A DNA stretch of 64,000 nucleotides from positions 124,001 to 188,000 of the forward strand of contig JACTNA010000029.1 in assembly GCA_014584315.1 (NCBI GenBank), written 5' to 3'. Below, in pieces: positions 39,017 through 43,318 of the stretch. The stretch comes from Planctomycetota bacterium. Its GTDB lineage: Bacteria; Planctomycetota; Phycisphaerae; Phycisphaerales; UBA1924. The notes under the pieces were generated by a model that worked only from the letters and a program-made list of their open reading frames with translations, did not search any database and was not told where the DNA came from. Each line of letters starts with the position of its first letter. The first letter of the stretch is position 1. Made by a program: the position numbers and the translations under genes.

Positions 39017-39856
39017 ATGGACCCCCTCCGCATCGCGTACGTCCGCTACCTGAACACGCGCCCGCTGGTCGAGGGGCTTGAGAAACTGGCGGGGGTGGAG
39101 CTGATCCCGGCCGCGCCGTCGCACATCGCCGGCCTGGTCGCGGACGGGCGGGCGGACGTGGGGCTGGTGTCGCTGGTGGACGCGGCGCGGGCCGGGGCGG
39201 GGCTGGCGCTGCTGCCGGTCGGGATGATCGGGTGCGACGGGGCGACGCTGACGGTGCGGCTGCACTCGGGCGTGCCGTTCGAGCGGGTGACGAGGGTGTA
39301 CGCCGACGTGGAGAGCCACACGTCGGTCGCGCTCTGCCGCGTGCTGCTGGCGGCACGGTTCGGCGTCCGCCCGGAGATCGCGCCGTTCGACGCGCGCGAG
39401 CGTTCCGGCGCGGCCGGGGGCGAGGAGTGGCCGGAGACGCTGCTCGTGATCGGGGACAAGGTCGTCACCGATCCCCCCCCCGATGGCCGGTACGCGCACA
39501 CCCTGGACCTCGGGGCGGCGTGGCGCGAGTGGACCGGGCTGCCGTTCGTGTACGCGGTGTGGATGTGCCGGGCGGAGGAGGCGGACTCGCCCCGCACCGC
39601 CGCGGCGTGCGCGCTGCTGGACCGCCAGCGCAGGCGCAACCAGAAGCGGCTCGGGTGGATCGTCGCCCGGCGCGCCCCCGAGCACAGGTGGCCCGGAGCG
39701 CTGGCGCGAGAGTACGTCGGCGACCTGCTCCGCTTCCGCGTCGGGGAGCGCGAACGCGAGGCGGTCGGGCGGTTCCTCGGCGAGGCGAGCGCGCTGGGCA
39801 TCGTCGAGCGAACGGCCCTGGAGTGGGTCGAGACGGGCGCGGCGCGGGTGGCGTGA
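39017..39856 (+). CDS. mqnA: Chorismate dehydratase MqnA (futalosine pathway)
   Basis: MqnA converts chorismate to 3-[(1-carboxyvinyl)oxy]benzoate, the first step of menaquinone synthesis by the futalosine route. 279 residues with the periplasmic-binding-like fold: IAYVRYLNTRPLVEGLEKLA, PSHIAGLVADGRADVGLVSL, a TSVALCRVLLAARFG helix, LLVIGDKVVTDPP and LGAAWREWTGLPFVYAVWMC. The RYLN/NTRPL start and GDKxxxDPP motif are usual for MqnA. No other mqn gene is adjacent. Confidence 0.9.
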   Translation: MDPLRIAYVRYLNTRPLVEGLEKLAGVELIPAAPSHIAGLVADGRADVGLVSLVDAARAGAGLALLPVGMIGCDGATLTVRLHSGVPFERVTRVYADVESHTSVALCRVLLAARFGVRPEIAPFDARERSGAAGGEEWPETLLVIGDKVVTDPPPDGRYAHTLDLGAAWREWTGLPFVYAVWMCRAEEADSPRTAAACALLDRQRRRNQKRLGWIVARRAPEHRWPGALAREYVGDLLRFRVGEREREAVGRFLGEASALGIVERTALEWVETGAARVA

Positions 39857-39920: not shown

Positions 39921-41591
39921 ATGCCTCCCCTGCCACGACTTCGCGTGACCGCGCTGGGCGAACTGGCGAAGCAACTGCGCTTCGCGCCGCGCGAGGCGCT
40001 GCTGCGCGACATCGAGCGGGCGGAGGCGTTGGCGGGCGAGATCGATCCCGGGCGCGTCTACCCCGAGGACTGGATCGTCTTCCGCATCACCGGGTATCGG
40101 GCGCACATCGACGAGCCGGCGCAGGTCGTCGGGGCCGCGCTGCTGGGCGATCTGTCCGCGCTGGTCGAGCGCCTGACCGCGGCGGCGGGCCTGACGGCCG
40201 AGGACCTGGCCGCGGCGGGGGCGATCGACGCCGACGCGCTCGCGGCCCGCTGGGGCGTGAGCCGCAAGACGCTCGAACGGTGGCGTCGCGAGGGGCTGCT
40301 GGCGCGCCGGGCGAGCCTCGGGGGGGGGTTGTCGCGCCTGGCCTACATGCCCGGCGCGGTCGAGCGGTTCGAGCGGGCGAACGCGGCGCGGATCGCGCGG
40401 GCGGCGGCGTTCTCGCGCGTCCCTCGGGAGGTCGAGGCGGAAATGCTGCGACGTGCGGCCCGCTACCGCGACTCGCTGGGGTTGTCGCTCAATGAGACGG
40501 CGGGCCGGCTGGCGCGGCGCTTCGGGCGGTCGCACGAGGGCGTGCGCCGCATCCTGCGCCGCCACGACCAGCGGGCGTCCGCCGCCGGGCGAACGCCGAT
40601 CTTCGGCGAGCCTCCGCCGCTGGCCGGCCGGAGGCAGCGCATCGCGCTGCGAGCGTGGCGGCGCGGCGTCGAGCCGGGCCGGATCGCGGCCCGATTCGGG
40701 CGCACGCGCGGCGCGATCCACCACGCCCTGCTCGCCGAACGGGTGCGCCTGCTGCGGGCGCACCCGATCGGTCCCGTTCCACCATCGGCGGCCGCGCTCA
40801 CCGACGAGGCGCTCGGCGCGCTGCTGGAGCCGGAACCGGTGCGATCGGGCCTGACCTGGCGTGGGGAGATGGACCTGCTCGCGTTCATCCGGTCGTCCCG
40901 CGAGCGTGCCGCGCCCGTCGCAGTCGAAGAGCGCATGCGCGCGATGGCGATGCACGCGCTGCGGGCCCGGGCGGCTCGGTTCACGGCGTCGCTCGCGTCG
41001 TCGGCGCCCGACGCGGCGGGCGTGGACCGGGCCGAGACGGACCTGCGGTGGGCGGCGCGCCTGCTGGCGACGCTGGTGCGCACGCACCTGCCGCTGATGG
41101 TCGAGACGCTGGAGGGCGCGATCGGCGTGCCGCTCGAGGGGCTGCGTCCCGCCGAGTCCCGCCCGCTCATCGCATCGGCCCTGGGCGCGGCGGCGTCGGG
41201 CGTGCTGGCGCACGATCCCTGGCGCGGCGGTCGGGCGGCCGCGCCGGTCGGGCTGGCCGTGACGCGCCTCGCGGCGGAGCGGGCGCGCTCGGTTCGCCCC
41301 GACCCGCGCCGCGCGACGCCCCGGCTCTCGGAAGGCGTCGCGTTCGACGACTGGACCCGCCGGCTCGCGCCGTGGCAGGCGTTCCTCGAGCCGGACGCTC
41401 GCTTCGCGGGAGCGATGGATCGGCTTGATGCGGCGCACAGGATGACGCTGTGTGCGCGGTTCGGGCTTGGCGGGGATCGCCCGCGCACGCTCGCCGAACT
41501 CGCCGCGGAACTCGGCGTGACGATCATGCGCGCGGGCGATCTGGAGCGGCGCGCGGTGCGGGCCGCGCTCGCGGTCGTGCGGGCGGAGTGA
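39921..41591 (+). CDS. Divergent sigma-70-region-4-like protein with several helix-turn-helix domains
   Basis: 556 residues, soluble, not a standard sigma factor. Order: an N-terminal domain with YPEDWIVFRITGYRAHIDEP, a MerR/excisionase-like HTH at about 100-130 (LAARWGVSRKTLERWRREGL), a second HTH near 183-215 (LSLNETAGRLARRFGRSHEG, VRRILRR), a third near 240-275 (RIAARFGRTRGAIHHALLAE), a helical middle (370-480), and a C-terminus that matches sigma-70 region 4: RLDAAHRMTLCARFGLGGDR, PRTLAELAAELGVTIMRAGD, LERRAVRAALAVV. No region 2.1-2.4 with the -10-recognition aromatic motif is visible. The arrangement suggests a specialised transcription regulator that keeps a sigma-like RNA polymerase or -35 contact. 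The stop is directly followed by a 138-bp inverted-repeat element. Confidence 0.7.
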   Translation: MPPLPRLRVTALGELAKQLRFAPREALLRDIERAEALAGEIDPGRVYPEDWIVFRITGYRAHIDEPAQVVGAALLGDLSALVERLTAAAGLTAEDLAAAGAIDADALAARWGVSRKTLERWRREGLLARRASLGGGLSRLAYMPGAVERFERANAARIARAAAFSRVPREVEAEMLRRAARYRDSLGLSLNETAGRLARRFGRSHEGVRRILRRHDQRASAAGRTPIFGEPPPLAGRRQRIALRAWRRGVEPGRIAARFGRTRGAIHHALLAERVRLLRAHPIGPVPPSAAALTDEALGALLEPEPVRSGLTWRGEMDLLAFIRSSRERAAPVAVEERMRAMAMHALRARAARFTASLASSAPDAAGVDRAETDLRWAARLLATLVRTHLPLMVETLEGAIGVPLEGLRPAESRPLIASALGAAASGVLAHDPWRGGRAAAPVGLAVTRLAAERARSVRPDPRRATPRLSEGVAFDDWTRRLAPWQAFLEPDARFAGAMDRLDAAHRMTLCARFGLGGDRPRTLAELAAELGVTIMRAGDLERRAVRAALAVVRAE

Positions 41592-41746: not shown

Positions 41747-43318
41747 ATGGCGACCGCCCGATCCATCGCCGAGATCGTCTCCGCGGAGCCGATCATCGGC
41801 ATGGAGGTCCACGTCGAGTTGGCGACGAGGACCAAGATGTTCACGCGCGCCCCCAGCCCGGCGCACCCCGAGTTCCACGACGCGGGGCCGAACACGCTCA
41901 CGGACGCCGTGGTGCTCGCGCTGCCGGGGACGCTGCCGGTGATGAACCGCGCGGCGGTGGAGATGGCCGCGCTGGTGGGGCTGGCGCTGGGGTGCTCGAT
42001 CGCGCCGCTCTCGCGCTGGGACCGCAAGAGTTACTTCTACCCCGACCTGCCGAAGGGCTACCAGATCAGCCAGTACGACCTGCCGCTCTGCTTCGACGGC
42101 GTCTTCGACCTTCCCGCGACGGACGCGCAGGGGCGGATCGACCCGGCGGGCCAGACGCGGCGCATCGGCATCATCCGGGCGCACCTGGAGGAAGACGCGG
42201 GCAAACTGCTGCACGAGGCGCCCGGCGGCGGGGCGATCGACTGCTCGATCGTGGACCTGAACCGCGCCGGCACGCCGCTGCTCGAGATCGTGACCGCGCC
42301 GGACTTCCGCTCGGCGGACGAGGCGGTCGCGTTCGCGCGGCTGCTGCGCCAGACCTGCCGGTTCCTCGGCGTCACCGAGGGGGTGATGCAGCGCGGGCAC
42401 GTGCGCTTCGAGCCGAACGTGAACTGCCGGCTCACGCTCCGCGACGGGCGCACCGTGCGCACGCCCATCGTCGAGGTCAAGAACCTCAACTCGTTCCGCG
42501 CCCTGCACGGGGCGATCACGCACGAACTGGTGGAGCAGCCGCGACGATGGGCCGCCGACGGGCGCAAGCACGGCCCGGGCGAGAAGACCACCCGCGGCTG
42601 GGACGCCGACCGCGAGGCGACCTACGTGCAGCGCGAGAAAGAGGACGCCGAGGACTACCGCTACTTCCCCGACCCGGACCTGCCGCCGGTGGCGGTGGGG
42701 GAGGCGTGGGTGTCGCGCCTGCGCGCGAGCCTGCCGGAACTGCCGCTCGCCAGGGTGCGCCGCTACTGCGAGTCCTACGCCCTCTCGCCCGCCGAGGCGT
42801 CCCAACTCGTCGAGGAGCGAGAGGTCTGCGAGTTCCTGGACGCCGCAGCAGACTGGGCGGTCGAGCTCGGCGTGTCGCGCGAGCGGGCGGGACGGCTCGC
42901 GGCCGGGCTGGTGCTCCAGCGCGGGGCGCGGCTCGCCAACGAGCGGGCGGTTCTCGTCTCGCGTCTGGGCGTCTCGGCGGCGCAACTCGCGGCCATCGTC
43001 GCCATGCGCGACGCCGGCGACCTCGGCTCGAACGCGGCCGACGACCTCTTCGAGGCGCTGTGCGACCCGGCGAACGCCGGCGCGGACCCGCGCACGCTCG
43101 CCGAATCGCGCGGCTGGCTGACGGTCCGCGACGACGCCGCGCTCGACCGCTGGTGCGAGCAGGCGATCACGGACAACCCGCAGGCCGCCGACGACGTGCG
43201 CGCCGGCAAGCAGGCCGCGATCGGCCGGCTGGTCGGTGCGGTGATGAAGGCGAGCGGGGGGGCGGCGGACGCGAAGGCGGCTCGGGAGCGGCTGCTCGAG
43301 AAACTCGGCGGGGGCTGA
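41747..43318 (+). CDS. gatB: Asp-tRNA(Asn)/Glu-tRNA(Gln) amidotransferase subunit B (GatB)
   Basis: The tRNA-binding, ATP-dependent kinase-like subunit of GatCAB. 523 residues: IIGMEVHVELATRTKMFTRA, LALPGTLPVMNRAAVEMAAL, SYFYPDLPKGYQISQYDLPL, IRAHLEEDAGKLLHE, DLNRAGTPLLEIVTAPDFRS, GHVRFEPNVNCRLTLRDGRT, VEVKNLNSFRALHGAITHEL, EDAEDYRYFPDPDLPPV and a C-terminal YqeY-like tail domain (about residues 375-523) ending ASGGAADAKAARERLLEKLG. All GatB landmarks are present. It is monocistronic here, 35 kb from gatA and gatC. Confidence 0.97.
   Translation: MATARSIAEIVSAEPIIGMEVHVELATRTKMFTRAPSPAHPEFHDAGPNTLTDAVVLALPGTLPVMNRAAVEMAALVGLALGCSIAPLSRWDRKSYFYPDLPKGYQISQYDLPLCFDGVFDLPATDAQGRIDPAGQTRRIGIIRAHLEEDAGKLLHEAPGGGAIDCSIVDLNRAGTPLLEIVTAPDFRSADEAVAFARLLRQTCRFLGVTEGVMQRGHVRFEPNVNCRLTLRDGRTVRTPIVEVKNLNSFRALHGAITHELVEQPRRWAADGRKHGPGEKTTRGWDADREATYVQREKEDAEDYRYFPDPDLPPVAVGEAWVSRLRASLPELPLARVRRYCESYALSPAEASQLVEEREVCEFLDAAADWAVELGVSRERAGRLAAGLVLQRGARLANERAVLVSRLGVSAAQLAAIVAMRDAGDLGSNAADDLFEALCDPANAGADPRTLAESRGWLTVRDDAALDRWCEQAITDNPQAADDVRAGKQAAIGRLVGAVMKASGGAADAKAARERLLEKLGGG

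Follow-up and report, generated by a model that had tools for sequence, protein, structure and literature searches.

Sigma factors are the RNA polymerase subunits that find promoters, and the known ones locate them with their own regions 2 and 4. Alternative sigma factors of planctomycetes, such as the 383-aa protein G000:C34, are built in the order sigma1.2, sigma2, short linker and sigma4. A sigma-70 can also have a long N-terminal extension, as exemplified by MzaA (NF041931, 726 aa), a sigma-70 associated with the MZA anti-phage system. Furthermore, a sigma2-sigma4-like half does not always act as a sigma: the alphaproteobacterial PhyR carries such a half and is a sigma mimic (PMC4598750). 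Here, we analysed a 556-aa protein encoded in a 64,000-nt stretch of DNA from a planctomycete of the class Phycisphaerae (hereafter the window), in which a sigma-70-derived half follows an array of three helix-turn-helix (HTH) domains. Its family is a new architecture within sigma-70, in which the sigma residues have been lost within one order.

Domain architecture of the window protein

The gene (39921..41591, + strand) encodes, in this order, a domain that we call N1, a winged HTH (wHTH1), HTH2, HTH3, a degenerate sigma1.2/sigma2 and a sigma4. It is a real, constrained gene. Homologues were present in 96 of 101 close genomes (84 of 85 among those of good quality) and in 146 of the 150 Phycisphaerae genomes searched, as a rule as one full-length copy per genome among both the close relatives and the class. 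This single-copy presence in nearly every Phycisphaerae genome searched makes it likely that the protein is important to the cell. The same-genus copy is 86% identical to the window protein. Between the window genome (G000) and G001, dN/dS was 0.06–0.27 in every part of the gene, and all parts of the protein are under purifying selection.

Directly upstream on the same strand lies an mqnA-like gene (39017..39856, +), which is a neighbour and not part of the protein; gatB (41747..43318, +) follows downstream, where only part of the family has it conserved as a neighbour. The mqnA-like gene holds its position across the order (37/43 members of f1, the window's own family, 7/7 of f5 and 9/11 of f6); in other orders or classes, it was not found beside the gene. 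We therefore took this adjacency as local synteny rather than function, and rejected mqnA as a conserved operon partner.

AlphaFold2 with 72 homologues predicted the full window protein with a mean pLDDT of 95.4, and residues 1–290 modelled alone reached the same value. The chain begins with N1 (residues 1–96; 39921..40208, +), which bears a YPxDfivfRITGYR motif and has no known occurrence outside this family apart from a shorter relative in family f72. Then come wHTH1 (97–160; 40209..40400, +), the three-helix HTH2 (161–222; 40401..40586, +) and HTH3 (236–282; 40626..40766, +), a three-helix domain of resolvase/sigma4-like type that resembles resolvases, a CRISPR-repeat-binding protein and sigma region 4. 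The initial annotation had placed three HTH-like segments, one of them MerR-like, ahead of a tail fitting sigma-70 region 4. The model agrees with this layout, with HTHs predicted at residues 104–153, 169–221 and 237–280 (pLDDT about 95). The predicted elements of wHTH1, a domain like those of MerR, BldC and terminase small subunits, are helices 104–111 and 115–122, a beta-hairpin wing (129–142) and a helix at 144–153. Its MerR character is weak in the window protein itself, both against HTH_17/MerR-like Pfam models (E 0.003–0.006) and against MerR_1 (17.1 bits, cut-off 21.6), but HTH_17 matches 45 of the 72 homologues (best 3.6e-10) and MerR_1 matches 18 at E ≤ 0.01. In sequence and fold, the domain is like 7lwr (E 5.6e-4) and 6amk (E 1.3e-3), that is, MerR/BldC proteins and terminase small subunits. 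HMMs of the N-terminal modules, for which all training sequences came from other classes and orders, recovered N1 (4e-20), wHTH1 (9e-13), HTH2 (2e-11) and HTH3 (2e-10) in the window protein; together with the sigma HMMs of intact relatives, they matched none of the 319 other window ORFs and no shuffled copies at E < 1e-3. Foldseek with the N-terminal half alone returned nothing significant, only generic HTHs with Z under 8. We infer that the array binds DNA.

The tail is sigma region 4 (residues 495–553; 41403..41579, +), as proposed: Pfam Sigma70_r4 matched residues 498–547 with an E of 8.5e-10 and 38 bits against a cut-off of 24. Its recognition helix reads VTIMRAGDLE instead of VTRERIRQIE. 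The accompanying claim that region 2 is missing did not hold. Residues 317–375 (40869..41045, +) are equivalent to region 1.2 and the non-conserved region, with VIA-align placing them on E. coli sigma70 from residue 96, and residues 376–459 (41046..41297, +) form a degenerate region 2, in which GGRAAAPVGLAV (residues 436–447; 41226..41261, +) stands in place of the −10 melting motif GNKFSTYASWAI. In the AlphaFold2 model, whose sigma2 part may lean on homologues in the alignment, residues 317–459 have a pLDDT of 95 and superpose on E. coli sigma70 regions 1.2–2.4 (Z 9.6–9.7, 3.0–3.5 Å, about 135 residues). Against PDB sigma factors, the 72-homologue profile aligned in two places, over region 2 (profile positions 377–456, i-E down to 5e-5) and over region 4, and Pfam Sigma70_r2 was detected in 9 of the 72 homologues (best 3.9e-12). 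HMMs of intact relatives, among them f5 and paralogous sigmas, matched the window protein in region 4 at 7e-8 and, weakly, in canonical sigma2 at 0.011. With the full model, Foldseek placed sigma factors among the best rows, all with E above 1e-3. The linker between sigma2 and sigma4 is short, and there is no sigma3. Region 2 is present as a fold and degenerate in sequence. Because residues 317–556 are a degenerate sigma1.2–sigma2–sigma4 unit, the window protein is by descent a member of the sigma-70 family. Elsewhere in the 3.3 Mb window genome, a Pfam scan that passed over the window protein found Sigma70_r2 in 18 other proteins, many of them ECF-sized and several in open frames of 529–820 aa.

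Complete relatives in other classes and orders

When the phylum was searched with profiles, full-length members turned up in several other planctomycete classes (families f34, f48, f55, f62, f69, f89, f95 and f98), so that the family, which the initial annotation had thought might be lineage-specific, is not restricted to Phycisphaerae. N1 occurred exactly once in each of 51 of the 294 phylum genomes and was not found in others, for example two near-complete f66 genomes. A scan of genome contigs gave matches in planctomycetes only, and protein searches of a plasmid collection with the window protein and with the canonical N-terminal half gave none. As anticipated, the protein had no full-length match to a named family; we found no description of the family in the open-licence literature, and the text of an essential-gene paper on Planctopirus limnophila mentions the housekeeping sigma only.

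Members outside the order combine Sigma70_r2 (E 1e-8 to 1e-13) and Sigma70_r4 (E 1e-6 to 1e-22) with the N-terminal HTHs. Regions 2 and 4 retain their key residues in all 20 members from other classes and in 6 of 7 from other orders; L118, from another order, also scores as eroded. Judged by sequence, these relatives beyond the window's order are complete sigma-70 factors with the same N-terminal module. In family f72, two relatives of 380 aa (L105 and L106, in G289 and G354) have N1 joined straight to an intact sigma2-sigma4, with no HTH block, which is possibly an ancestral or a reduced form. In family f110, the open frame that contains N1 is only 461 aa long (G495:C38:24031-24303) and may represent either a third architecture or a truncated copy.

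A promoter-like element, GAAC-N15-17-CGTC, precedes the gene in family f48. It was present in 11 of 20 other-class members, where 0.34 would be expected, a count to be read with the relatedness of the genomes, which are not independent, and with the choice of the pattern after seeing one genus. The element lies about 115–260 bp ahead of the start codon, with a spacing of N16-17, in L085, L088, L089, L091–L093, L095, L097, L098 and L102, reads TTCGCATGCGAAC...CGTC in some planctomycete copies and has what we take to be the form of an ECF-type promoter. In several genera it is overlapped by the palindrome TTCGCATGCGAA, and the exact 15-mer TTCGCATGCGAACTT occurs once per genome in G314, G331, G361 and G414, in front of the gene. 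The overlapping site may reflect autoregulation or be the site of another regulator, and the element is consistent with a role in transcription for the canonical members. Ahead of the genes of the window's family, GAAC-N15-17-CGTC was not enriched (2/43, expected 1.05), and neither the element nor the overlapping site was seen in the window's lineage.

Loss of sigma residues within the order

The residues of sigma70 that bind the clamp, melt the −10 region and read the −35 region are well established in E. coli, whose numbering we used after checking it on the RpoD sequence. All 20 other-class members keep F427, S428, T429, Y430, W433, E585, R588 and Q589. The window protein has A439/P442/L445 at the melting positions F427/Y430/W433 and I535/M536/G539/D540 at the −35-reading positions R584/E585/R588/Q589, and the clamp-helix motif of region 2.2 (D/E403, E/D407, G408 and N409) is not retained. 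Across its family f1 (n = 43), Y430 is kept in none of the 43 (P in 22, A in 10), F427 is L in 31, R588 is A in 25 and Q589 is R in 22, while in the clamp helix G408 is A in 22/43 and N409 is I, L, M or V in 39/43. The new residues are themselves conserved in the family, with the consensus GGRLAAPVGLA and D-x2-ET-x-LRW.

Families f2, f3 and f4 are eroded like f1, whereas f5, from the same order, keeps nearly all key residues. In f6, region 4 is missing from all 11 members and was found in 0/11 in any frame to 900 bp downstream of the stop codon; the same scan, as a control, found it in 7/7 f5 and 43/43 f1 members. After the sigma2 part, f6 proteins (L047, L051, L053–L057, L059–L061 and L075) end in short unrelated C-termini. 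The two halves also differ: in f1, conservation is higher in the N-terminal modules (0.36–0.42) than in the sigma half (0.31–0.34), likewise in f4 (0.55–0.66 versus 0.40–0.44), and this is reversed in other classes (sigma2 0.68, N1 0.38).

In a tree built from the N-terminal module alone, with SH-aLRT as the only support values, each family formed one clade (f1 97, f6 98, f2 95, f5 99 and f4 93). Family f5, with canonical regions 2 and 4 in essentially all seven members, was sister to the uniformly degenerate f1–f4 (SH-aLRT 88, not starred), and f6 branched outside f5 plus f1–f4. Since an intact f5 sits beside degenerate f1–f4, with f6 outside, the simplest history suggested by these sequences is that the sigma losses are nested in the order and occurred at least twice.

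Proposed function and known counterparts

We propose that the ancestor was a planctomycete sigma-70 with N1, a winged HTH and two further HTHs, followed by sigma1.2, sigma2, a short linker and sigma4, with no sigma3. In other classes and orders, the protein most likely works as an alternative sigma, whose array would bind promoter-upstream DNA and whose sigma2 and sigma4 would bind core RNA polymerase, read the −10/−35 region and melt it. In the window's lineage, other residues have taken the places of those that bind the clamp, melt the −10 region and read the −35 region, and the protein most likely no longer directs initiation. With the array kept and the sigma half apparently unequipped to melt or read a promoter, a DNA-binding regulator would be expected. 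The window protein would then be an ex-sigma that acts through the N-terminal array it has conserved, while its sigma-derived half would serve as a scaffold or as a surface for weak docking of RNA polymerase or another partner. We give this reading a probability of roughly 0.6, building on descent, architecture, residue loss, its repetition in the order and purifying selection; we infer both the absence of sigma activity in the window protein and any regulatory target. Since selection still acts on the sigma half, that half does something. Docking of region 4 to RNA polymerase is possible in the window's lineage, where the R-x-G core of region 4.1 is kept, and is weakened as an idea by the loss of R584, E585, R588 and Q589 from the −35 helix and by f6, which dropped region 4 and kept the rest.

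More tentatively, with odds a little short of even, the order as a whole turned a conserved single-copy sigma with an HTH array into a DNA-binding regulator that is sigma-free. This would have happened independently on two or more occasions, through erosion in f1–f4 and through loss of region 4 in f6, with the ancestral sigma surviving in f5 and the other classes. If true, the intact (other classes and f5), eroded (f1–f4) and region-4-less (f6) forms would be a natural series from sigma to transcription factor and would let one ask which sigma parts are dispensable and what stays useful.

Sigma factors can tolerate unusual −10 residues, which counts against an ex-sigma, as does the intact predicted fold of both sigma domains. 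The window protein could still be an active, divergent sigma with a new −10/−35 specificity, in which the array provides most of the promoter recognition and the usual residues are dispensable. Such a sigma would account for the kept fold, a region 4 above the Pfam cut-off, replacement motifs that are conserved rather than random and purifying selection on the sigma half. We nevertheless consider it unlikely, as the clamp-binding residues (L/V-S-D/E-G-N), the melting aromatics and the −35 residues were lost together and f6, in the same order, has no region 4. The kept fold with lost DNA-contact residues would also suit a mimic or decoy, whose degenerate sigma2-sigma4 binds an anti-sigma or RNA polymerase and modulates another sigma in the manner of PhyR and NepR, PhyR having set the precedent of a sigma-like domain with a role other than that of a sigma (PMC4598750). 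This seems quite unlikely to us, because the window protein has no receiver domain (no Pfam match), its gene adjoins mqnA and gatB rather than an anti-sigma gene, and the HTH array, not the sigma half, is most conserved. That the array is structural or binds non-promoter DNA (nucleoid, replication) or RNA, making the protein no transcription regulator, is highly improbable: its fold matches are generic HTHs, including those of transposases, resolvases and terminase small subunits, but all canonical members are fused to a sigma factor and the conserved promoter-like element ahead of the f48 gene fits a role in transcription.

Among described systems, the wHTH1 of the window protein is like the winged HTHs of MerR/BldC and phage terminase small subunits in sequence and fold type. 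In contrast to MerR, it is only one of several domains: HTH2 and HTH3 come next, and no MerR effector domain or dimerisation helix was identified after it in the window protein. Like PhyR, the window protein has a sigma2-sigma4-like half without DNA-contact residues; PhyR, however, has a receiver domain and no HTH array, whereas the window protein has HTHs in its N-terminal half, and a counterpart of PhyR's partner NepR was not seen here. MzaA shares the plan of a sigma-70 with a long N-terminal extension and, among NCBIfam models, gave canonical members their best match (E 1e-42 to 5e-51). Its best stretch covers the sigma region, at 146–175 bits against a curated cut-off of 800, and none of the matches listed reached the N-terminal module. 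Closest in the sigma half are the planctomycete alternative sigmas, which have the same domain order as the window family and, in the G000:C34 type, are homologous over profile positions 236–546 (E 2e-24). Compared with them, the window's lineage is without core-binding, melting and −35 residues, and the window family has about 290 extra N-terminal residues, comprising N1 and three HTHs. In the intact members, three extra HTHs in one chain with a sigma would be a sigma plus activator in one piece.
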